Source: Blastococcus sp. TF02A-30
GTDB lineage: Bacteria; Actinomycetota; Actinomycetes; Mycobacteriales; Geodermatophilaceae
Assembly: GCF_003319185.1 (NCBI RefSeq)
Contig: NZ_QOHJ01000003.1
Coordinates: 62,001 to 126,000 of the forward strand
Direction of reading: 5' to 3'
DNA length: 64,000 nt
Made by a program: the position numbers and the translations under genes. The notes under the pieces were generated by a model. It searched no databases, was not told where the DNA came from, and saw only the letters and a program-made list of their open reading frames with translations. Shown here piece by piece: positions 10,261-39,093 of the stretch (position 1 is the first letter of the stretch; every line of letters starts with the position of its first letter).

Positions 10261-11469
10261 GTGCCTCGTGGACTGCTCGCCCTGGCCATCGGCGCCTTCG
10301 GCATCGGCACCACCGAGTTCGTCGTCATGGGCATGCTGCCCGAGATCGCCGACGGCCTGGACGTCTCCGTGTCCGCCGTGGGCCTGCTCATCTCCGCCTA
10401 CGCGATCGGCGTGGTGGTGGGGGCACCGACGTTGACCGCCCTCGGCCTCCGGTTCACCCCGCGCCAGACCCTCGTGGCGCTCATGGTCGTGTTCGTCGTC
10501 GGCAACACCCTCGCCGCCCTCGCCCCGACGTACGGCACCCTCGCCGCCGCCCGCGTGCTCACCGCGCTGGCCCACGGCTCGTTCTTCGGCGTCGGCGCCA
10601 TCGCCGCCCGGCGGCTGGTGAAGCCGGCCCGCGCCACCCAGGCGATCTCGCTGATGATCACCGGCCTGACCCTGGCCAACGTCATCGGCGTGCCCGCCGG
10701 GACGTGGGTCGCCCAGCAGACCAGCTGGCGGCTCGTCCTGGGCGCCATCGCGGTCATCGGGCTGGTCACCATCGCCGGTCTGCTCGCCTGGCTGCCGGGG
10801 GGCGACGCCGAGCCCGCGGACCTGCGCACCGAGCTGTCGGCCTTCCGCCGCGGCCAGGTGTGGCTGGTCCTGGGCCTGACCATGATCGGCTTCGCCGCGA
10901 CCTTCGCCGTCTACAGCTACGTCTCCCCGATCCTCACCGACCTGGCCGGCATCTCCGAGCACGGGGTGACCCCCGTGCTCGCGCTCTTCGGGGTGGGGAC
11001 GACGATCGGCACGCTCCTCGGCGGCCGGCTGGGTGACCGCTACGGCTTCGGCTTCGTCGCCGTCGGGATGATCGCCGTCGCCGTCGTCCTGGCGGCCTTC
11101 TCCTTCGTCGCCGAGAACGCGATCGCCGCCGTCGTCCTCCTGGTGCTGTTCGGCATGGTGGGGTTCGCGATGGGCCCGGTCGTGCAGAACGGCGTGATCG
11201 TGGCTGCCCAGGTGCGTGGCGGCGGGAGCCTGGTCTCGGCCGCCAACCAGGGCGCGTTCAACATCGCCAACGCCATCGGGGCGGCGCTGGGTGCGCTGTT
11301 CATCGCCCAGGGCTTCGGCCTCACCGCCCCCATGTGGGTCGGGGCCGTCCTCGCCGTCGTCGGCGCCGTCATCGCGTCGCTCATCGCGCTCGGCCACCGG
11401 CGGCGGGCGGTGCCGGCCACCCCCGTCCAGCGGACCACCGCGGTCCTCGACTCCGCGGCCGCCGCCTGA
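10261..11469 (+). CDS. DHA1-family (12-TM) MFS exporter, AraJ/PbuE type
   Basis: Proton-coupled efflux transporter of 402 residues with about 12 helices. The TM1 sequence GAFGIGTTEFVVMGMLPEIA is the hallmark of the AraJ/YdhP/PbuE group (arabinose, purine nucleoside or drug exporters). Motif-C-like sequence TGLTLANVIGVPAGT is in TM5. The chosen GTG start follows GGAG and gives the short N-terminus normal for this group; longer in-frame extensions upstream are Pro/Arg-rich and look non-coding. It lies between an alcohol dehydrogenase and an aldo/keto reductase on the same strand, with 40 bases to the latter. Confidence 0.88.
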   Translation: MPRGLLALAIGAFGIGTTEFVVMGMLPEIADGLDVSVSAVGLLISAYAIGVVVGAPTLTALGLRFTPRQTLVALMVVFVVGNTLAALAPTYGTLAAARVLTALAHGSFFGVGAIAARRLVKPARATQAISLMITGLTLANVIGVPAGTWVAQQTSWRLVLGAIAVIGLVTIAGLLAWLPGGDAEPADLRTELSAFRRGQVWLVLGLTMIGFAATFAVYSYVSPILTDLAGISEHGVTPVLALFGVGTTIGTLLGGRLGDRYGFGFVAVGMIAVAVVLAAFSFVAENAIAAVVLLVLFGMVGFAMGPVVQNGVIVAAQVRGGGSLVSAANQGAFNIANAIGAALGALFIAQGFGLTAPMWVGAVLAVVGAVIASLIALGHRRRAVPATPVQRTTAVLDSAAAA

Positions 11470-28835: not shown

Positions 28836-29270
28836 GTGGACGAGGCCCGGCACACCCTCGTCCCGGCACCCCGCCGTCCGGCCGACCCCGCCCCCGTGCG
28901 GGTGCTCGTGGCCGACGACGAGGACGACATCCGCTCCCTCGTGTGCGTCGCCGTGGCGAAGTCCGGCGGCGTGGTCGTCGACTCGGTCGCCGACGGCACC
29001 GCCGCGCTGACCGCCGCGCGCGCGGGCTCCCCCGACGTCGTCGTGCTCGACGTGTCCATGCCCGGCGCCACCGGGCTGGAGGTCTGCGCGGCCCTGCGCG
29101 CCGAACCGTCCACCGCCGGCATCCGGGTGCTGCTGCTCTCGGCGGGTGCCTCCCTCGACGACGTCGCCGTCGGCCTCGCCGCCGGCGCCGACGCCTACCT
29201 GGCCAAGCCGTTCGCCGTCTCCGGGCTGGTGCACCAGCTGCGGACCCTGACCGAGCGGCAGCCGGCATGA
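28836..29270 (+). CDS. Single-domain response regulator (receiver only)
   Basis: CheY-like receiver of 144 residues with no output domain. All key residues are present: acidic pocket in VADDEDDIR, phospho-acceptor Asp in VVVLDVSMPG, Ser in VLLLSAG and Lys in YLAKPF. It probably shuttles phosphate or signals by protein contact. GTG follows CAGGAG. It overlaps the histidine kinase gene as ATGA, so the two form a coupled pair. The target is unknown; the nearby degenerate receiver-Hpt protein (32884-33558) cannot be a phosphate partner. Confidence 0.9.
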   Translation: MDEARHTLVPAPRRPADPAPVRVLVADDEDDIRSLVCVAVAKSGGVVVDSVADGTAALTAARAGSPDVVVLDVSMPGATGLEVCAALRAEPSTAGIRVLLLSAGASLDDVAVGLAAGADAYLAKPFAVSGLVHQLRTLTERQPA

Positions 29271-31003
29271 CCACCGCCGTCCTCGACCGCGGCACCGCCC
29301 GCCCGCGGCTCCAGGCCGGGCTGACCGAGGCCTGGCGCTCCGCCGTCCTCGGCCCGCTGCCGTGCTCCGTCATGTTCGGCACCGCCGCGCTCCTGATGGC
29401 GACGGGCACCCTGCCGGTCACCGACGTCGAGCTCGTCCTGGCCGGCCTGGCCACCGCCCTGGCAGCGATCACCACGGCGTGGCTGTCGCCGTCCGCCGGG
29501 CACGTGCGCGCCGTCGCCGTCCCGCTGGCGAACCTGGGGGCCGTGGGGCTGGTCTACGCCGGCACCGACTCGCCCGCGGCGCTGTTCCTGCTCGTGAGCC
29601 CCCTCTACGGGCTGGTCAGCCACCCGCGCCGGGCCGGCGTCGCCACGGCGGTGCTCGGCACGCTCACCGTCCTGCTCGTGCCCGAGCTGCTGGGTGCCGG
29701 CAGCTCGTCCTGGGCGACCGAACCGGCGTCGCTGGTCCTCGGCCCGCTGGTCGTGGGCCTCGGCGGTGCCGCGGTGCACGAGAGCGGGCGCCGGCTCACC
29801 GCCCAGGCGGCCGCCATCCAGCGGCTGCAGGACGAGCAGGCCGCCCTGCTCGAGCAGGTGCAGAGCCGGGCCGACGAGCTCGACCAGGCGTCGCGCATCC
29901 TCGCCGCCCGCGCCCAGACCATGACCAGCGTCATCGACGCGGTCACGGAGCAGTCGATCATCGGCACCGACCCCGACGGCACGATCCGCGTCTGGAACCC
30001 GGGCGCCGAGAAGCTCCTCGGCCTGCTCCGCGCCGACGTGGTGCGGCAGCGCTCGATCGTGGAGTTCCACCTCCCCGAGGAGCTGGAGGAGGTCGCGGCC
30101 GCGCACGGGGCCGCCGTCGGCCTGGACGCGCTGGTGCACGCGGCCCAGGAGCACGGCAGCGACGTGCGCGACTGGACCTACGTCGGGGCCGACGGACGCA
30201 CCCGCACGGTGTCGGTCGCGGTCACCCCGCGCACCGACGACCGCGGCGTGCACGCCGGCTGGAACTTCGTGGGCACCGACATGACCGAGGTGCGCGCCAC
30301 CGAGCGGATGAAGGACCAGTTCGTCAGCCTGATCAGCCACGAGCTGCGCACCCCGCTCACCTCGATCCTCGGCTACCTCGAGCTGGTGCTCGACGACGAG
30401 GACCGCACGCTGACCGACGAGCAGCGCCAGTACCTGTCCACCGTGGAGCGCAACGCCGACCGGCTGCTGCGCCTGGTGGGCGACCTGCTCTTCACCGCCC
30501 GCGTGGAGGCCGGCCAGTTCACCCTGCAGCCCGAGGACGTCGACCTGGTCGGCATCGTCCGGGCCGCCGAGGAGACCGCCCGCGTGGCGGCGGCGACGGC
30601 CGGGGTCGAGCTGGTCGTGGAGGTACCCGACGACGCCGTCGTGGTCTCCGGGGACGCTGTGCGGCTGGGGCAGGCGTGCGACAACCTCGTCTCCAACGCC
30701 GTCAAGTTCACGCCGGCCGGTGGCCGCGTGACCCTCACCGTCGAGGCCGACCGGCAGGACGGGCGGCCCGTCGCCCGGATGTCGGTGCGCGACACCGGCA
30801 TCGGCATCCCGAACGACGAGCAGGGCAAGCTGTTCACCCGGTTCTTCCGCGCCTCGACCGCCACCCGCAACGCCGTCCCCGGCGTGGGTCTGGGGTTGAC
30901 GATCACCAAGGCGATCACCACCGCGCACGGCGGCTCGCTGGACCTCGCCAGCGTCGAAGGCGAGGGCACGACGTTCACGCTCACCCTCCCCCGCGAGGCC
31001 TAG
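29267..31003 (+). CDS. Membrane sensor histidine kinase with PAS domain
   Basis: Sensor kinase of 578 residues. Residues about 30-190 form several helices with very short loops, so sensing is probably within the membrane. A coiled coil (about 195-225) leads to a PAS domain (about 230-345, IIGTDPDGTIRVWNPGAEKL). The H-box FVSLISHELRTPLTS has the phospho-His at residue 358. N-box DNLVSNAVKFTPAGG, D-box VRDTGIGIP and G2 box GVGLGLTITKAI are intact. It overlaps the receiver gene. Stimulus unknown; location before the TasA-like operon suggests matrix control. Confidence 0.93.
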   Translation: MTTAVLDRGTARPRLQAGLTEAWRSAVLGPLPCSVMFGTAALLMATGTLPVTDVELVLAGLATALAAITTAWLSPSAGHVRAVAVPLANLGAVGLVYAGTDSPAALFLLVSPLYGLVSHPRRAGVATAVLGTLTVLLVPELLGAGSSSWATEPASLVLGPLVVGLGGAAVHESGRRLTAQAAAIQRLQDEQAALLEQVQSRADELDQASRILAARAQTMTSVIDAVTEQSIIGTDPDGTIRVWNPGAEKLLGLLRADVVRQRSIVEFHLPEELEEVAAAHGAAVGLDALVHAAQEHGSDVRDWTYVGADGRTRTVSVAVTPRTDDRGVHAGWNFVGTDMTEVRATERMKDQFVSLISHELRTPLTSILGYLELVLDDEDRTLTDEQRQYLSTVERNADRLLRLVGDLLFTARVEAGQFTLQPEDVDLVGIVRAAEETARVAAATAGVELVVEVPDDAVVVSGDAVRLGQACDNLVSNAVKFTPAGGRVTLTVEADRQDGRPVARMSVRDTGIGIPNDEQGKLFTRFFRASTATRNAVPGVGLGLTITKAITTAHGGSLDLASVEGEGTTFTLTLPREA

Positions 31004-31207: not shown

Positions 31208-31822
31208 ATGAGCGCCAAGGTCACCAGCTCCACCGCCCGCAAGGTCGTCGGCTCGCTCGGCGTGATCGGCGCCGCTGCCGCGGTCGCCGGCATGGGCACC
31301 TTCGGTTCCTTCACCGACAGCAGCACCCCGGTCAACACCACGATCCAGGCCGGCACGCTCAACATCGACGTCACCGCAGCGCGCTACGCCTTCCCGGTCA
31401 CCACCTCGAACTTCGTCCCGGGCGACACGATGACCCGCGCGATCAACCTTAAGAACAGCGGCGACGCGTTCGGTTCGATCAGCTTCTCCTCGGCCGCCAC
31501 GGTCGGCAGCGTCCTGACCGACGGCACGGCCAACGGCCTGCAGCTGTCCGTCAAGTCCTGCTCGGTCCCGTGGACCCAGGGCGGCACCGCCGCGGCGCCG
31601 ACCTACTCCTGCGCCGGCGTCGTCGCCGACGTCGTCCCGGCCGGCCCGGTCGTGCGCACCAACGTGCCGCTGACCAACCCCAAGTCGCTGGCCAGCAACG
31701 GCACCGACTACCTCACGGTCTCGATCTCGCTGCCCCTGGCCGCAGACAACAAGTTCCAGGGTCAGTCCGCGTCCCTGAGCCTCGCCTTCACCGGCACCCA
31801 GGCCACCGGCACCAACCGCTGA
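31208..31822 (+). CDS. TasA/camelysin-like secreted matrix protein (SipW-type signal peptide)
   Basis: Secreted protein of 204 residues. The N-terminus (RKVVGSLGVIGAAAAVAGMG, then TFGSFTDSSTPVNTTIQAG) matches the SipW-dependent signal pattern, in which a hydrophobic core is followed by a FxD/TD element and N-x-x-x-x-AGTL. The mature domain is Ser/Thr-rich and beta-structured, like TasA and CalY fibre proteins. It is cleaved presumably by the signal peptidase encoded 28 bases downstream. Such proteins build biofilm fibres in Bacillus; a similar role here is inference. Translation may be controlled by the leader hairpin. Confidence 0.8.
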   Translation: MSAKVTSSTARKVVGSLGVIGAAAAVAGMGTFGSFTDSSTPVNTTIQAGTLNIDVTAARYAFPVTTSNFVPGDTMTRAINLKNSGDAFGSISFSSAATVGSVLTDGTANGLQLSVKSCSVPWTQGGTAAAPTYSCAGVVADVVPAGPVVRTNVPLTNPKSLASNGTDYLTVSISLPLAADNKFQGQSASLSLAFTGTQATGTNR

Positions 31823-31850
31823 CCCGGCTGACACCACCGGAGATCACGCC

Positions 31851-32477
31851 ATGACCGCCATCCTCCCCGTCCGTCGCCCGGGGGCAGCCAGCGCGCTGCC
31901 CCCGGCCGGGGACGAGCGCACCGCGCCGGCCCAGCGGGTCGCCACGGCCCGTCGCATCGGGAGCCTGCTCGCCCCGTGGCTCGTCCGCGGGATCGTGGGC
32001 CTGGCCGTCCTGGTGTTCGCTCTCCTCGCCGTGGGCCCGCACGTCCTCGGCTACCGCACGATGACCATGCTCACCGGCAGCATGTCGCCGGAGATCGACC
32101 CGGGTGACGTCACCATCGCCACCCCCATCGCCATCGACGAGGTCACCGAGGGCATGGTGATCACCTACCACCAGCCGATCGGCGACCGCAGCCTCGTCAC
32201 CCACCGCGTCGTCTCGGTCGAGCACGGCTCCGACGGCACCGTCAGCGTGCAGACCAAGGGCGACGCCAACGAGGCGGTCGACCCCTGGACCGCGACGCTG
32301 GAGGGCGACACCGCCTACCAGGTGCGCGCCGTCGTCCCCGAGCTGGGCCACCTCGTGCAGGCCCTGCGCACCCCCGTTCTCACCCAGGTGCTCGTGTACG
32401 GCGCCCCGGCCCTGCTGGCCGGCTGGCTGCTGCTGACCATCTGGCGCCCCGCTCGTGACCAGGAGGACCAGGCATGA
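31851..32477 (+). CDS. SipW/ER-type signal peptidase I
   Basis: Membrane serine protease of 208 residues that should cleave the signal peptides of the flanking secreted proteins. The nucleophile is in LTGSMSPEIDPGDV. The general base is His (SLVTHRVVSV) rather than the Lys of ordinary bacterial signal peptidases, which places it in the SipW/archaeal-ER branch. Helices are near residues 45-68 and 180-200. The gene lies between the TasA-like gene and a second secreted protein, which it overlaps as ATGA. This neighbourhood strongly supports the dedicated-peptidase role. Confidence 0.9.
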   Translation: MTAILPVRRPGAASALPPAGDERTAPAQRVATARRIGSLLAPWLVRGIVGLAVLVFALLAVGPHVLGYRTMTMLTGSMSPEIDPGDVTIATPIAIDEVTEGMVITYHQPIGDRSLVTHRVVSVEHGSDGTVSVQTKGDANEAVDPWTATLEGDTAYQVRAVVPELGHLVQALRTPVLTQVLVYGAPALLAGWLLLTIWRPARDQEDQA

Positions 32478-32890
32478 CCGCGCTCCGCCGCACCGCCGTC
32501 CTGATCGGCCTGATCGCCGCCGTGCTCGTCGGCACGAGCATCCCGGCCTCGGCCACCTTCACCGCCAGCGAGGCCGTGGCCACCTCGGTCACCACCGCCA
32601 CGGTGACCGCGCCGACGAACGTCGTCCTCGACGTCCGGTGCGACAGCTGGAACCTGTACGCCACGATCCGCTGGACGGGCAGCAACGCCCCCAAGGTCAG
32701 CGGCTACCGGATCGCCGCCACGGTCCCCGGGATGCCGACCATGGAGTTCACCGCCGCTGCGGGCGCCAGCCGCTACGACCACAGCATGGGCCGCGCCTGG
32801 GCCGCCTACCCGATCTCCGTGACGGTCACGACGCTGACCGCCTACGGCTGGACCAAGACCTCCGCGGTCGTGACGGGCACGTCGTGCTGA
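32474..32890 (+). CDS. Second SipW-associated secreted protein, FN3-like
   Basis: Secreted protein of 138 residues. A basic N-terminus and hydrophobic core end at PASATFTASEAV, resembling the SipW cleavage region. The rest has the strand pattern of a fibronectin type III-like domain (WNLYATIRWTG, KVSGYRIAATV, ISVTVTTLTAYGW) and two Cys residues (VRCDSW and the C-terminal TSC) that could pair. Likely a minor matrix or anchoring component for the TasA-like fibre. It overlaps the signal peptidase gene and, by 7 bases, the degenerate receiver-Hpt gene. Confidence 0.7.
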   Translation: MTALRRTAVLIGLIAAVLVGTSIPASATFTASEAVATSVTTATVTAPTNVVLDVRCDSWNLYATIRWTGSNAPKVSGYRIAATVPGMPTMEFTAAAGASRYDHSMGRAWAAYPISVTVTTLTAYGWTKTSAVVTGTSC

Positions 32891-33558
32891 CCGCCCTCGT
32901 CGTGGACGCCGACGCTCTCGCCCGTCGCCGCACCGCCGGCCTGCTCCGCCTCGGCGGGTGGCACGTCCGGGAGGCCGCCGGCACCCGCACCGCGCTGGAC
33001 GAGTCCGCCGCCCTGGAGCTCGACCTCGTCGTCACCGCGGTCGTGCTGGGCGACGAGGACGGCCTCGCGCTCCTGCGCCGCCTCCGCGCCGCCGGCTCCC
33101 GCGCCCGGTTCCTCGCGGTGGCCGACGAGCCCACCGACGCCGTCCGGGCCGCGGCGGCCGCCGCCGGCGCGATGGCCGTGCTGGCCACGCCGGTGCGGGC
33201 CGATGTCCTCCTCGACTTCCTGCGCAGCCGGACCACGGGGCCGGCTGCGCAGGGCACGACCACCGCGATCTCCGAGTTCGACGACCTGCACGACGTCGAC
33301 CTCGACGCCGAGCTCTGGGACCGGCTCCAGGAGATGTACGTGCACGCCCTGCCCGACCGCCTCTCCGCGATCGAGACGCACACCCGCACCGGCGACAGCA
33401 CCGCGGTCGCCTCGGCCGCCTACACGCTGGCCGGCACGAGCGGTCAGCTGGGCCATCCCGAGGTCGCCTCCGTGTGCCAGGCCATCGCGGCCGACGCGCG
33501 GCGCGGCGTCCTCGCCCATTCCCGGGTCGTGCAGCTGCACGCCCTGGCCGGCGTCTGA
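32884..33558 (+). CDS. Degenerate receiver-Hpt protein (both phospho-acceptors lost)
   Basis: Protein of 224 residues. Residues 1-115 have a receiver fold, but the phospho-acceptor position is Ala52 (VVTAVVLGDEDG), the Thr/Ser position is Ala80 and the Lys position is Thr102 (LATPV). Residues about 135-224 have the Hpt helical bundle, where the usual AHxLKGxSxxxG reads AAYTLAGTSGQLG, giving Tyr180 for His and Ala183 for Lys. Phosphotransfer is therefore not expected in either domain; a protein-binding or allosteric role is more likely. GTG at 32884 overlaps the previous stop by 7 bases. A strong hairpin terminates the operon. Confidence 0.75.
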   Translation: MLTALVVDADALARRRTAGLLRLGGWHVREAAGTRTALDESAALELDLVVTAVVLGDEDGLALLRRLRAAGSRARFLAVADEPTDAVRAAAAAAGAMAVLATPVRADVLLDFLRSRTTGPAAQGTTTAISEFDDLHDVDLDAELWDRLQEMYVHALPDRLSAIETHTRTGDSTAVASAAYTLAGTSGQLGHPEVASVCQAIAADARRGVLAHSRVVQLHALAGV

Positions 33559-34613: not shown

Positions 34614-35687
34614 GTGGACGGAACCGTCCGCGTCCTGGTCGTCGACGACGACCCGGACATCGCCCAGTACGTGCGCACAGTCCTGCACAAGGCGGGGGCG
34701 CAGGCGATCGCCTGCTTCGACCCGCTGGAGGCCCTGGCCCTGGCCGCCCGCGAGCAGTTCGACGCCGCCGTGACCGACATCGAGATGCCCGGCATGAACG
34801 GGCTGGAGTTCCTCGGCCGGCTGCGCGAGCTGCAGCCCGGGCTGCCGGTCGTCGTCATGACCGCGCACGCCTCGGTCGACTACGCGGTGGAGGCGCTCCG
34901 CCGCGAGGCCGACGACTTCATGGTCAAGCCGGTGCGCCGCGACGACGTCGTCGCCACCATGACGAAGGCGGTGGAGACCGGCCGTGCCCGCCGCGCCGCC
35001 GCGCGCACGCAGACCGTGCTGGCCATCGGCGCCCACCCCGACGACGTGGAGCTCGGCATCGGCGGCACGCTGGCCGCGCACCGCTCCGCCGGGGACCAGG
35101 TCGTGATCCTCACCCTGTCGCGGGGCGCCCGCGGAGGCGAGGCCGGGGACCGGCAGGAGGAGTCGCTGGCCGCCGCCGAGCTGATCGGCGCCCGCCTCTT
35201 CCTCGAGGACCTCGAGGACACGCGCATCAGCGAGGCCGACCCGACGGTGTCCATCATCGAGCGGGTCGTCACCCAGGTGCAGCCCACGATCGTCTACACG
35301 CACTCGAAGAACGACCGGCACCAGGACCACCGCGCGGTGCACCAGGCCGCCCTGGTCGCCACCCGCAACGTGCCCACCGTCGCCTGCTTCCAGAGCCCGT
35401 CGGCGACCGTCGACTACCGGCCGACCCGGTTCGTGACCATCGATGGCTTCACCGACACCAAGCTCGCGCTGCTGGCCGCCTTCGGCTCGCAGGCCGGTAT
35501 CCGCACGTACATGCAGGACGACTTCGTCCTGTCCACCGCCCGCTACTGGTCCCGCTACGGCGGCGGCACCTACTGCGAGCCGCTGGAGGTGATCCGCGAG
35601 GCGAGCGCCGTCGTGGGCGCCACCGGCGGCTCGGGCCTGACCACCTCCACCCCCACCACGACCCTCCAGGAGCGCTCCGGTGTCTGA
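34614..35687 (+). CDS. Receiver domain fused to PIG-L (LmbE) N-acetyl-sugar deacetylase
   Basis: Fusion of 357 residues. Residues 1-125 form an intact receiver: VVDDDPDIAQY, Asp55 in VTDIEMPGMNG, Thr in VVMTAHA, Lys105 in FMVKP. From residue about 134 a PIG-L deacetylase follows, with the zinc motif AHPDDVELGIGG (His141, Asp144) and the later HQDH. PIG-L enzymes deacetylate N-acetylglucosaminyl groups (as in mycothiol and GPI synthesis). Phosphorylation may thus directly control catalysis. GTG follows GAGGGGAG. Its end overlaps the ATP-grasp gene by 8 bases; it opens a five-gene operon divergent to an OmpR-type regulator. Confidence 0.88.
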   Translation: MDGTVRVLVVDDDPDIAQYVRTVLHKAGAQAIACFDPLEALALAAREQFDAAVTDIEMPGMNGLEFLGRLRELQPGLPVVVMTAHASVDYAVEALRREADDFMVKPVRRDDVVATMTKAVETGRARRAAARTQTVLAIGAHPDDVELGIGGTLAAHRSAGDQVVILTLSRGARGGEAGDRQEESLAAAELIGARLFLEDLEDTRISEADPTVSIIERVVTQVQPTIVYTHSKNDRHQDHRAVHQAALVATRNVPTVACFQSPSATVDYRPTRFVTIDGFTDTKLALLAAFGSQAGIRTYMQDDFVLSTARYWSRYGGGTYCEPLEVIREASAVVGATGGSGLTTSTPTTTLQERSGV

Positions 35688-36654
35688 CTCCTCCCCCACC
35701 CGTGTGCTGGTGACCGGGGCCGGTGGGCCCGCGGGCATCGCCGTCCTGCGGTCGCTGGCCCGCCGGCACGACGTCGTGCTGCTGGCCGCCGACATGGACC
35801 GCTACGCCAGCGGCCTCTACCTGGTCGACGAGGGCGCCCGCTTCCTCGTGGAGCCCGGGCTGTCCGAGACGTTCGTCGACTCGCTGGTCGAGCTGTGCGA
35901 GCGCGAGCGGGTCGACGTCCTGTTCTCCACCGTCGACGTCGAGCTGCCGCGCATCGCCGCCGAGCGCAAGCGGCTGGACGAGGTTGGCACCGCGCTGGCC
36001 GCCCCGAGCCTGGAGACCCTCGAGGTCTGCCTGGACAAGTACGCGCTCGCCCAGCGCTGCGACGGGGTGCTGCCCACGCCGCGCACCGAGCTGCTCGGCG
36101 CGAGCGACCCGGACTCCTGGGACTACCCGGTCATCGTCAAGCCGCGCCGCGGCGCCGGCTCGCGCGGTGTGCACCTGGTCGCCGACGCCGACGCGCTGCG
36201 CGCCCTCGGCGAGGACGAGGACACGCTGGTGCAGGCCAACCTGCCCGGCGACGAGTACTCGGTCGACACCCTCGCCGACGCCGACGGCCACGTCGTCGCC
36301 GCCGTGCCGCGCTCGCGGCTGCGGGTCGACTCGGGCGTCTCGGTCGCCGGCGCCACCGTCGCCGACGAGGAGCTGGAGGCGACCGCGCGCAAGGTCGCCG
36401 AGGCGATCGGCCTGGTGGGCGTGGCCAACGTGCAGCTGCGCCGCGACGCCGAGGGCCGCGCCGCGCTGCTCGAGGTCAACCCCCGCTTCCCGGGTGCGAT
36501 GCCGCTGACCGTGGCCGCCGGCGTGGACATGCCCTCGCTGGCCCTGGACCTGGCGCTGGGCCGCGAGCTGCCCGACCGGGTGCCGTTCCGCGAGCTGGCC
36601 GTCGTCCGCTTCCTGGAGGACGTCTTCCTGGCGCCGTCGGAGGTGCTGGCGTGA
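35680..36654 (+). CDS. ATP-grasp ligase (carbamoyl-phosphate-synthase-like/PylC-like)
   Basis: Predicted ATP-dependent carboxylate-amine (or thiol) ligase of 324 residues. The N-terminal preATP-grasp domain starts TRVLVTGAGGPAGIAVLRSL. The ATP-binding elements are YPVIVKPRRGAGSRGVHLV and ALLEVNPRFPGAMPL (metal-binding Glu/Asn). Such enzymes join an acid to an amine; following a PIG-L deacetylase that would expose an amino group, it is the natural next step, but the substrate is unknown. GTG overlaps the preceding stop, and its own stop overlaps the PHP gene as GTGA. Confidence 0.88.
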   Translation: MSDSSPTRVLVTGAGGPAGIAVLRSLARRHDVVLLAADMDRYASGLYLVDEGARFLVEPGLSETFVDSLVELCERERVDVLFSTVDVELPRIAAERKRLDEVGTALAAPSLETLEVCLDKYALAQRCDGVLPTPRTELLGASDPDSWDYPVIVKPRRGAGSRGVHLVADADALRALGEDEDTLVQANLPGDEYSVDTLADADGHVVAAVPRSRLRVDSGVSVAGATVADEELEATARKVAEAIGLVGVANVQLRRDAEGRAALLEVNPRFPGAMPLTVAAGVDMPSLALDLALGRELPDRVPFRELAVVRFLEDVFLAPSEVLA

Positions 36655-37385
36655 TCGTCGACCTGGTCGACACCGACCACCACGTGCACTCCACGTGGTC
36701 CGACGACGCGGTGAGCACGCCGGCGGAGAACCTCGCCGCCGCGCAGCGGGCCGGGCTGGCCAGCATCCGGATGGTCGACCACGTGCGCGTGGGGACGACG
36801 TACGTGCCCGAGTTCCTCGCCGAGGTCGCCGCGCTGCCCCGCGTCGACGGGCTCGAGGTGCTGACCGGTGTGGAGGCCAAGATCCTCGACGCCTCCGGCC
36901 GCCTCGACGTCCCCGCCGACCTGGTCGTCGGTCCCGGCGGGGTGGACCGGGTGCTCATCGCCGACCACCAGTTCCCCGGGCCGGACGGCTCGTGGAGCCC
37001 GCGGCGCACCCTCGAGGAGCTGGCCGCCGGGCTGTCCGCGCAGGACGCGATGTCCATGCTCGTGCAGGCCACCTGCTCCGCCATGGAGCGGGCCGGCCGC
37101 GGGCAGCTCGCGCACCTGTTCTCGCTGCTGCCCAAGATCGGGCTGCACGAGAGCGAGCTGCTCGACGAGCACCTGACCGCGATCGCCGACACGGCCGTGC
37201 GCACGGGCACGACGGTCGAGGTCAACGAGAAGTGGCGCTGCCCCGGTCCGCGGGCCGTGCTCGCGCTCGCCGCCGCCGGCGTCGATCTGGTGGGTTCCAC
37301 CGACAGCCACGAGGCGTCGACGGTGGGCTCGTACTCCTGGGTGGCCGAGGCAGCCTCGGCCCGACGACTGGTGGGTGCCCGATGA
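36651..37385 (+). CDS. PHP-domain metal-dependent hydrolase
   Basis: Hydrolase of 244 residues with the PHP fold, usually a phosphoesterase such as histidinol phosphatase. Metal ligands visible are DTDHHVHSTWSDD (HxH), MVDHVR, GVEAKILD, IADHQFPGP and the terminal STDSHEAS (DxH). It is probably a phosphatase for an intermediate of this pathway. The GTG start overlaps the ATP-grasp stop, and the end overlaps the glycosyltransferase ATG, so expression is tightly coupled. Substrate cannot be deduced. Confidence 0.87.
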   Translation: MIVDLVDTDHHVHSTWSDDAVSTPAENLAAAQRAGLASIRMVDHVRVGTTYVPEFLAEVAALPRVDGLEVLTGVEAKILDASGRLDVPADLVVGPGGVDRVLIADHQFPGPDGSWSPRRTLEELAAGLSAQDAMSMLVQATCSAMERAGRGQLAHLFSLLPKIGLHESELLDEHLTAIADTAVRTGTTVEVNEKWRCPGPRAVLALAAAGVDLVGSTDSHEASTVGSYSWVAEAASARRLVGAR

Positions 37386-38866
37386 ACGACGTCCTGGCCG
37401 CGAGCCCCGACATCGCCGAGATCGGCCGCGGGGTGCTCGTCGGCGTCCTGCTGCTGTTCGTGGCGTTCGGCGCGATCCCGGTGATCGCCGGGCTCGCGCA
37501 GTTCCTGGTGATCCCGGTGCACGCCGTGCGCAACCACTACCGCGAGACCGGGCCCTACCTGCCCAACGTCGCGGTGCTCGTCCCGGCGTGGAACGAGGCG
37601 GCCGTGCTGCCCGCGTCGGTCGAGCGGCTCATGGGGCTGGACTACCCGCCGGACCGGCTGCGGGTCTACGTCGTGGACGACGCCAGCACCGACGACACCC
37701 CCGCCGTCATGGCCGGGCTGGCCGAGCGCTTCCCCGGCCGGGTCGTGCACCTGCGCCGCGAGAAGGGCGGCGAGGGCAAGGCGCACACGCTCAACCACGG
37801 GCTGCGCGAGGTCCTCGCCGACGACTGGATGGAGGCGCTGCTGATCATGGACGCCGACGTCATCTACGCGCCGGAGTCGCTGCGCAAGATGACCCGGCAC
37901 CTGGCCGACCCGACCGTCGGCGCGGTGACGGCCTACATCCGCGAGGGCAGCCGGAACCCCGAGGGCCTCACCCGGTTCATCGGCTTCGACTACCTGGCCG
38001 CGCAGGCCGCCTCCCGCCGCGCCCAGAACGTGGCCGGCGCGATGGCGTGCCTGGCCGGCGGGGCGCAGCTGCACACGCGGGAGAACCTGCTGGCCATCGG
38101 CGGGCAGATCGACACGTCCTCGCTGGCCGAGGACACGGTGACCACCTTCCGCACCCAGCTCGCCGGGCACCGGGTCGTCTTCGAGCCGCACGCCCGCGTG
38201 CTGGCCGAGGAGCCCGCCGGCATCGACGCGCTGTGGAAGCAGCGGCTGCGGTGGGCGCGCGGCAACGTGCAGATCACCTCGATGTACCGCCACCTGTTCT
38301 TCCGGAAGTCGGTGCACCCGGGTCTGGGCGGCTTCTTCTTCGGGATGTTCTGGTTCGCGATCCTGCTGCTGCCGCTGGCGATGCTCATGGTGTCCGTCGG
38401 GCTCATCGGGCTGCACCTGCTGGACAGCGAGCTGGCCTCCGACGTGTTCGGAGCGGCGGCGTTCGTGCCGGTGGCCACCTTCGTCTTCATGGTCACGCTG
38501 ACCCTGTCGATGGACCCTGCGGTCGGCCGGACCGTCTGGCGCGAGGCGCTGCTGTTCCCGGGGCTGATCTCGTTCCTGGTGCTGCTGGGTGCCACGTTCC
38601 CGATGCTGGTGCCGTTCGACGGCGCGGCGAACACCGGCTGGACGCTGTTCGTCTACAGCTGGCTGGTGCTGTGCATCCCGATGGCCTTCGCGGTGCGCAA
38701 GCTGGAGACGACCCGCTGGGGACGCCGGCTCGCTCCGATCGGCCTCTACCTGGTCGGCTTCGGGCCGATGATGTGCGCGATCACCGTGGACGCCTACCTC
38801 AAGGAGTACCGCGGGGCCGCGATGACCTGGGACAAGACCGAGAAGACCGGACGGGTGATGGCATGA
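37382..38866 (+). CDS. Processive GT2 glycosyltransferase (cellulose/hyaluronan-synthase-like)
   Basis: Membrane glycosyltransferase of 494 residues. A leading helix (about residues 18-45) precedes a cytoplasmic GT-A domain with AVLVPAWNEAAVLP, VVDDASTDDTP, LIMDADVIY (DxD), LAEDT (base) and QRLRWARGN, the QxxRW of processive synthases. Four to six C-terminal helices would form a translocation channel. No PilZ domain is seen. The polymer could be a beta-linked, possibly partly deacetylated, polysaccharide. ATG overlaps the PHP stop as ATGA, and the end overlaps the small membrane protein gene. Confidence 0.92.
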   Translation: MNDVLAASPDIAEIGRGVLVGVLLLFVAFGAIPVIAGLAQFLVIPVHAVRNHYRETGPYLPNVAVLVPAWNEAAVLPASVERLMGLDYPPDRLRVYVVDDASTDDTPAVMAGLAERFPGRVVHLRREKGGEGKAHTLNHGLREVLADDWMEALLIMDADVIYAPESLRKMTRHLADPTVGAVTAYIREGSRNPEGLTRFIGFDYLAAQAASRRAQNVAGAMACLAGGAQLHTRENLLAIGGQIDTSSLAEDTVTTFRTQLAGHRVVFEPHARVLAEEPAGIDALWKQRLRWARGNVQITSMYRHLFFRKSVHPGLGGFFFGMFWFAILLLPLAMLMVSVGLIGLHLLDSELASDVFGAAAFVPVATFVFMVTLTLSMDPAVGRTVWREALLFPGLISFLVLLGATFPMLVPFDGAANTGWTLFVYSWLVLCIPMAFAVRKLETTRWGRRLAPIGLYLVGFGPMMCAITVDAYLKEYRGAAMTWDKTEKTGRVMA

Positions 38867-39093
38867 GCACCGACCTGACGGCCACGAGGCCGTACCGCAT
38901 CTCCGCCCCGGTGGTCCTCACCGAGGCCGAGCTCGCCGCCCGCGGTGGGGTGCTGCCCGTGTGGGCCGACCCGGTGGCGCTGGCCGACGAGACCGAGGCC
39001 GACCGGCTGCGGGAACGCCGGCTCTACGTCGGGCTCGCCGTCGCGATCGCCGTCGTCGTCGCGCTGTGGACGGTGCGGTCCTTCCTGGGCTGA
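38863..39093 (+). CDS. Small membrane protein of the glycosyltransferase operon
   Basis: Protein of 76 residues: a cytoplasmic N-terminal arm (about residues 1-48, ALADETEADRLRERRL) and one C-terminal helix (YVGLAVAIAVVVALWTVRSFLG). ATGA overlap with the glycosyltransferase gene makes it a coupled last member of the operon. Small single-helix partners are known for some synthases (for example PgaD-like proteins); an accessory role to the GT2 enzyme is inferred from position only. No recognised family. Confidence 0.7.
   Translation: MSTDLTATRPYRISAPVVLTEAELAARGGVLPVWADPVALADETEADRLRERRLYVGLAVAIAVVVALWTVRSFLG

Follow-up and report, generated by a model that had tools for sequence, protein, structure and literature searches.

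A conserved, usually kinase-linked operon of actinobacteria with a chemically edited surface polysaccharide as its probable product

Closest described systems

The polymer synthases PgaC/IcaA of poly-N-acetylglucosamine (PNAG), BcsA of cellulose and hyaluronan synthase share the acidic and QxxRW motifs of family 2 glycosyltransferases (GT2), as well as the fold of the membrane part, with the product of g4, the fourth gene of a five-gene operon of Blastococcus sp. TF02A-30. This operon (g1 to g5, Table 1) lies in a stretch of 64,000 nucleotides of contig NZ_QOHJ01000003.1, hereafter the window, and combines a receiver domain fused to a PIG-L de-N-acetylase, an ATP-grasp ligase, a PHP metallohydrolase, the GT2 and a small membrane protein. 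The five genes probably make a chemically edited surface sugar polymer, with the editing enzyme controlled via its built-in receiver. Within the PNAG comparison, g5, which we take to be a small membrane partner, recalls PgaD/IcaD. However, g4 misses the curated cut-offs for PgaC, CelA and NodC, and the operon adds the ATP-grasp and PHP enzymes. The scores are 122.6 bits for the PNAG synthase equivalog PgaC/IcaA TIGR03937 (cut-off 422.3) and 71.4 bits for cellulose synthase TIGR03030 (cut-off 699.1), and the curated cut-offs for HpnI and MftF are missed as well; on these grounds the PNAG, cellulose, NodC and MftF identities were rejected. Moreover, the PNAG deacetylase is a secreted enzyme of the NodB type, in place of which a receiver-bearing PIG-L type is found here.

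A likeness also exists to the mycothiol and bacillithiol pathways, where a PIG-L deacetylase is followed by an amide-forming step, although their glycosyltransferase and ligase classes differ from those of the operon. It is conceivable, if very improbable, that the operon produces a soluble thiol- or antibiotic-like metabolite in this style, by glycosyl transfer, dephosphorylation, deacetylation and amide ligation. The kinds of reaction are alike, and BshB1 is the best PIG-L equivalog for g1; yet g1 reaches 85.9 bits against the BshB1 cut-off of 182.5 (TIGR04001), and the modelled GT2 is of the membrane synthase type. The genome's own MshB is moreover encoded by a separate gene (G000:C23:236794-237657; 420.1 bits, cut-off 224.35), on which ground a mycothiol operon was rejected, and g1 (G000:C23:96614-97687) is absent from the genome's four matches to the MshB model. 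An earlier reading of the window by sequence alone (the sequence-only reading) had found no fit to the cellulose, PNAG and mycothiol operons; the missed cut-offs agree with this and extend it to bacillithiol.

By analogy, the Campylobacter capsule may serve as a biochemical precedent for ligation, dephosphorylation and GT2 extension. As described in PMC11800379, C. jejuni HS:2 (Cj1438, Cj1435) combines, as the operon does, an ATP-grasp amidoligase, a phosphatase and a GT2, where the first adds a phosphorylated amine, the second removes the phosphate and the third carries out the extension. The two systems differ by family description: the Campylobacter ATP-grasp enzyme is TupA-like and amidates glucuronic acid, with a phosphatase of the HAD class (PMC11800379), whereas the operon has a PRK12767-like ATP-grasp enzyme, a PIG-L domain with a receiver and, as its phosphatase-like enzyme, a PHP protein instead of one of the HAD class. 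A general parallel is the listing of an ATP-grasp ligase among genes of a modified-carbohydrate neighbourhood (PMC4000134), and a pig-L deletion reduced biofilm in C. difficile, in a different system (PMC12613277).

Among the open-licence papers searched by titles and abstracts, none was recognised on this gene combination or on a receiver-PIG-L protein, and no description was found of a response regulator whose output is a sugar de-N-acetylase. Nor did the open-licence papers yield any known cluster for an exopolysaccharide or antibiotic that matches the set, a match which the sequence-only reading had named as evidence against itself (cluster databases were not searched).

Gene order, conservation and membership of the operon

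The five genes lie on the same strand at 34614-39093 and overlap at all four junctions, namely by eight bases (GTGTCTGA) between g1 and g2, by GTGA between g2 and g3, and by ATGA both between g3 and g4 and between g4 and g5. The coordinates and overlaps first reported for this arrangement proved exact, and the domains were confirmed. Public genomes were scanned with a PHP protein alignment, and the best 80 loci of 229 relatives by PHP similarity were compared with the window, giving 81 sequences; because the loci were chosen by PHP similarity, all locus rates are conditional on PHP. Residue and junction rows are the copies clustered by the gene caller (76 of g1, 79 of g2, 80 of g3 and 70 of g4 out of 81), and divergent or broken copies (L030, L031, L133-L135 and G091; loci and genomes are cited by our labels L and G) stand outside the residue and junction counts.

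Table 1. Features of the operon and of its surroundings, in window positions
Feature	Position	Strand	Basis
g1, receiver-PIG-L de-N-acetylase fusion, 357 aa	34614-35687	+	Pfam Response_reg 7-115, PIG-L 136-249
g2, ATP-grasp ligase, 324 aa	35680-36654	+	PF15632 109 bits, PF02655, PylC-like N-terminal domain
g3, PHP metallohydrolase, 244 aa	36651-37385	+	PF02811, 29.0 bits (cut-off 26.4)
g4, membrane GT2, synthase-like, 494 aa	37382-38866	+	GT2 Pfam above cut-off
g5, small protein whose single hydrophobic stretch (one transmembrane segment) is C-terminal and follows a charged E-x(4,5)-R-x(1,2)-E stem, 76 aa	38863-39093	+	without Pfam or NCBIfam match
Lone receiver (144 aa) of the linked two-component module	28836-29270	+	PF00072; cluster c5
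Membrane histidine kinase, PAS-HisKA-HATPase, 578 aa	29267-31003	+	Pfam; cluster c3
Module of a TasA/camelysin-like protein, a signal peptidase of the SipW type and a third, small protein that may bear a signal sequence	31208-32890	+	PF12389, TIGR02228, TIGR04088
Receiver-Hpt protein	32884-33558		cluster c24, or c60 in the corresponding position

A search with the five window proteins found g2 in 80/80 loci and the order g1-g2-g3 in 78/80, the two loci without g1 (L071 and L105) beginning at g2 at a contig end. The GT2 gene stands directly behind g3 in 69/80 loci, counting L108, although tblastn splits its GT2 over two frames. According to the tree labels, eight families are represented (Geodermatophilaceae, Cellulomonadaceae, Microbacteriaceae, Sanguibacteraceae, Intrasporangiaceae, Nakamurellaceae, Pseudonocardiaceae and Nocardioidaceae), and the g1-g4 proteins have a mean pairwise identity of 61-67% (60 loci). 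The gene order is thus conserved beyond close relatives, a point on which the initial proposal had been made to depend. Relatives of g3 with 80-86% identity come from Blastococcus genomes, and the window sequence falls inside the Blastococcus clade of the operon tree, which was built from operon sequences alone and groups the genera well (14 changes against a minimum of 13, 78 rows). Across the 81 sequences, 68 of 75 adjacent g1/g2 pairs, 72 of 78 g2/g3 pairs and 66 of 69 g3/g4 pairs offer a possible start codon that overlaps the stop of the preceding gene, these counts being upper bounds because the script chose the start closest to an overlap. Such overlaps are not peculiar to a single genome, and they may reflect selection for stoichiometric expression of the five genes.

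The occurrence of the operon is low and patchy. Within its own family, the PHP gene was found in 16/19 Blastococcus genomes (in pieces in G091) and in 0/77 genomes of other genera. A genus-private operon was nevertheless excluded, because the gene recurs in other families. Wider samples yielded the PHP gene in 4/396 genomes of the phylum (own genome and G479 included), 8/394 of the class (own included) and 12/79 of one genus; in the phylum and class scans no more than 6-7 candidates were scored for each genome, and cases may have been missed. The G479 match was discarded as an operon, no further operon gene lying within its 5.6 kb contig. The operon of L035 (G091, a one-contig genome) is decaying, with g2-g4 spread over several frames, stops in the GT2 and no PIG-L domain among the tblastn pieces. 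L033 (G069) retains a lone, well-conserved PHP gene (10727-11452, 82% identical) and has lost the other four genes from the locus, as if the PHP protein had a use of its own.

The adjacent GT2 is absent in 11 of the 80 loci. Ten of these 11 genomes (eight Leifsonia, two Cellulomonas) carry a full-length GT2 orthologue elsewhere (E 1e-242 or better), and the idea that the GT2 is dispensable in Leifsonia was rejected on account of this orthologue outside the locus. No g1-g3 match was found beside the relocated GT2 in any of the six regions, out of these ten, that were inspected. Of three regions read completely, only one, that of C. fimi HM71, has a small transmembrane gene, of 61 residues, immediately behind it. 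The eleventh locus, from B. atacamensis, keeps a remnant matching g4 residues 9-52 in place, and the only GT2 found in its genome is a remote one (E 1e-37). Likewise, none of the three Blastococcus genomes without g3 has a close GT2 (6e-37, 7e-40 and no match). Both the retention of the orthologue in all ten Leifsonia and Cellulomonas genomes and the absence of a close GT2 from all three PHP-less Blastococcus genomes indicate that the GT2 belongs to the unit.

The presence of a g5-type gene at this place is highly non-random. A short open reading frame (ORF) with a hydrophobic C-terminus is found behind g4 (or g3) in 77/81 sequences. Compared with other genes of the same loci as a control, such an ORF follows 76/80 testable targets versus 34/1175 control genes, and it does so at an exact four-base overlap in 72/80 versus 1/1175. 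In 72/80 versus 0/1175 the hydrophobic stretch is preceded by a charged stem of the form E-x(4,5)-R-x(1,2)-E, a pattern that was picked after examples had been inspected. The targets without a g5-type ORF are L049, L069, L070 and L075; in the L070 genome the small transmembrane gene has moved along with the GT2. Eight Leifsonia loci still have it behind the PHP gene despite the departure of the GT2.

Divergent relatives point to the same core. The outgroup locus L133 encodes a receiver-free PIG-L protein (212 aa), an ATP-grasp ligase, a PHP protein, a GT2 and a 44-residue protein in identical order, with no kinase match within its 19 kb. The five genes therefore form the core, and the receiver was either added later or lost in L133. 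L134 (11013-12476) carries two receivers and a PIG-L domain in one protein with a kinase just before it, and L031 has a kinase and a receiver ahead of its receiver-PIG-L gene. Other relatives hold parts of the set. L135 (G784, 775-2624) comprises PHP and ATP-grasp genes with a GT2 orthologue on a different contig, no g1 being found in the 14 kb examined. On an Arthrobacter plasmid (L124, 5983-8620), PIG-L, ATP-grasp and GT2 relatives are consecutive without a PHP match, followed by a gene of unassigned kind. Sinorhizobium megaplasmids share with the operon an adjacent pair of g3 and g2 homologues, at 5920-7658 in L122 (27% and 31% identity, respectively) and 5929-7658 in L123 (28% and 28%), whereas no g1 or g4 match was found in these 12 kb stretches. 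Judged by their sequences, the neighbours in both appear to be sulfate-activation-like, RTX-like and glycosyltransferase-like genes, to which L122 seems to add asparagine-synthase-like and epimerase-like genes, so that the surroundings read as a polysaccharide region.

Active sites, predicted folds and product

The residues expected for activity are conserved in all four enzyme genes, and we take these positions to be catalytic from established family knowledge. The g1 receiver keeps the acid pocket, phosphorylatable Asp, Thr and Lys of response regulators (D55, T83 and K105 in 76/76 rows, D12 in 75/76 and D13 in 74/76), and its PIG-L domain has H141, D143, D144, H236, D238 and H239 in 76/76. 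For g2, which among solved sequences is nearest to 2pn1, K120, K154, E265, N267 and R269 are found in 79/79 rows (numbering from GTG 35680). The g3 protein shows the PHP phosphoesterase ligand pattern HxH...H...E...H...H...DxH: H11, H13, D18, H44, E75, H106, H155, D218 and H220, presumably with metal-ligand roles, are conserved wherever the residue is present (80 rows). Its profile aligned in parts to YcdX (1m65), and the top Protein Data Bank (PDB) folds for its structure model (pLDDT 93.2) are YcdX and histidinol phosphatases. The acidic motifs (DxD, ED) and QxxRW (287-291) of g4 are likewise invariant, with D157, D159, E250, D251, Q287, R290 and W291 in 70/70 rows, and a C-terminal tail WxKTxKxG is conserved at 483-490. 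A defence system was also considered and rejected, PADLOC giving two weak matches only, both within the g1 receiver region.

The g4 model aligns with hyaluronan synthase and BcsA over a span that starts near residue 11-22, takes in the membrane part and ends at residue 494, which supports a predicted polymer-synthase fold across nearly the full length. This bears on a different product, which we consider rather unlikely, namely a glycolipid or small glycoconjugate. A non-processive GT2 would then put one or a few N-acetylhexosamine (HexNAc) residues on a lipid or other carrier, and the PIG-L, ATP-grasp and PHP enzymes would trim and acylate the product in the cytoplasm, comparable to the pathways of N-acetylglucosaminyl-phosphatidylinositol (GlcNAc-PI) or hopanoid-glucosamine. 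Such a product is at odds with the alignment of g4 to both processive enzymes through the membrane part, and with the missed cut-offs for HpnI and MftF. The conserved WxKTxKxG tail, which we assume to resemble the gating loop of processive synthases, also speaks against it.

For the surface polymer, the following chemistry is proposed. The GT2, with the one-transmembrane protein as its partner, would polymerise an amino-sugar unit and carry the chain across the membrane. On the cytoplasmic side, the PIG-L domain would deacetylate either the sugar nucleotide or the growing end, and the ATP-grasp enzyme may next attach a carboxylic acid to the amine so exposed. Dephosphorylation of this added group, or of its donor, would fall to the PHP enzyme. 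We give about an even chance to the full version of this pathway, that is, a two-component-gated, single-synthase route to an N-deacetylated, probably amide-decorated polymer. A role up to the synthesis of a surface glycan can fairly be inferred, and the individual reactions and their order less firmly. The signal-controlled pathway to a modified polysaccharide put forward in the sequence-only reading has accordingly gained a conserved unit, active-site residues, a synthase fold for the GT2 and a linked kinase. The choice of a polymer over a glycolipid, the placing of an amide on the sugar amine and the PHP substrate are held more tentatively.

Linked sensor kinase and neighbouring genes

A sensor kinase whose N-terminal part appears, from its sequence, to span the membrane is present in 75/81 sequences. 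In 62 of them it lies behind g3 at a distance of two to five genes, and in 12 (Blastococcus) it is the eighth gene ahead of g3; in L072, where g3 was not called, it has no assigned position. Clustering of the neighbours shows that outside Blastococcus the histidine kinase (c3) and lone receivers (c5) stand close behind the operon, the lone receiver cluster occurring in 61/93 clustered sequences. Among the kinase-less sequences, L043 and L048 are Blastococcus loci cut upstream by the contig end, L071 is a 3.8 kb contig and L108 contains a kinase fragment. Sequence distances of the kinase correlate with those of g1-g4 (r 0.87-0.92), partly because of shared ancestry. The five genes first proposed stand, but the conserved unit is larger and also takes in the sensor kinase and the lone receiver (28836-31003). 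In all, the system comprises six to eight genes and usually has a kinase linked to it.

The membrane histidine kinase would phosphorylate the PIG-L-fused receiver, directly or via the lone receivers. If so, the signal would bear directly on the editing enzyme and not on transcription, and such control is strengthened by the linked kinase together with the receiver-free outgroup operon. Two observations weigh against this control step and against an exclusive partnership. A kinase homologue remains in 5/5 Blastococcus genomes in which the operon is lost or broken (that of G028 being partial, with a stop), and L077 and L114 are without a kinase in the available flank. The view of the kinase as an exclusive partner of the operon is thereby weakened. 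Both observations would fit a linkage that is one of neighbourhood only, with the PIG-L receiver served by another kinase or acting as a docking domain; this would touch the control step only and be compatible with either product. We nevertheless regard a mere neighbourhood as unlikely, given the presence of the kinase in 75 of 81 loci with correlated distances, its adjacency also in the divergent L134 and L031, and the conserved phosphorylation-site residues of the receiver.

Phosphorylation of the fused receiver by the linked kinase, our preferred reading, leads to a more far-reaching suggestion, to which we attach limited confidence: the operon may represent a new, synthase-dependent class of glycopolymer with post-translational switching of its chemistry, the receiver signal deciding on deacetylation and amide decoration. 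If true, this would be a glycopolymer system of at least eight actinobacterial families, undescribed in the open papers searched, in which a sensor kinase edits surface-polymer chemistry directly at the enzyme, and, as far as the open literature was searched, the first response regulator whose output is a sugar de-N-acetylase. It would also provide a function for the receiver-PIG-L architecture, for a small membrane protein family that lacks a model, and for the recurrent ATP-grasp/PHP pair, which is also found in rhizobial megaplasmid regions.

Two further elements lie between the kinase and the operon in the window. The receiver-Hpt protein, which occurs in many Blastococcus loci, could act as a phosphorelay step. 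The TasA/SipW-like module, found in this set only in Blastococcus, is likely a protein-fibre module. Its TasA/camelysin-like protein scores 46.2 bits for PF12389 (cut-off 22.5), and the module reaches 61.8 for TIGR02228 (cut-off 51.85) and 19.1 for TIGR04088 (cut-off 19), while the TasA and SipW equivalogs remain under their cut-offs (30.4 versus 450 and 65.9 versus 190, respectively). Its presence fits a role in the extracellular matrix.

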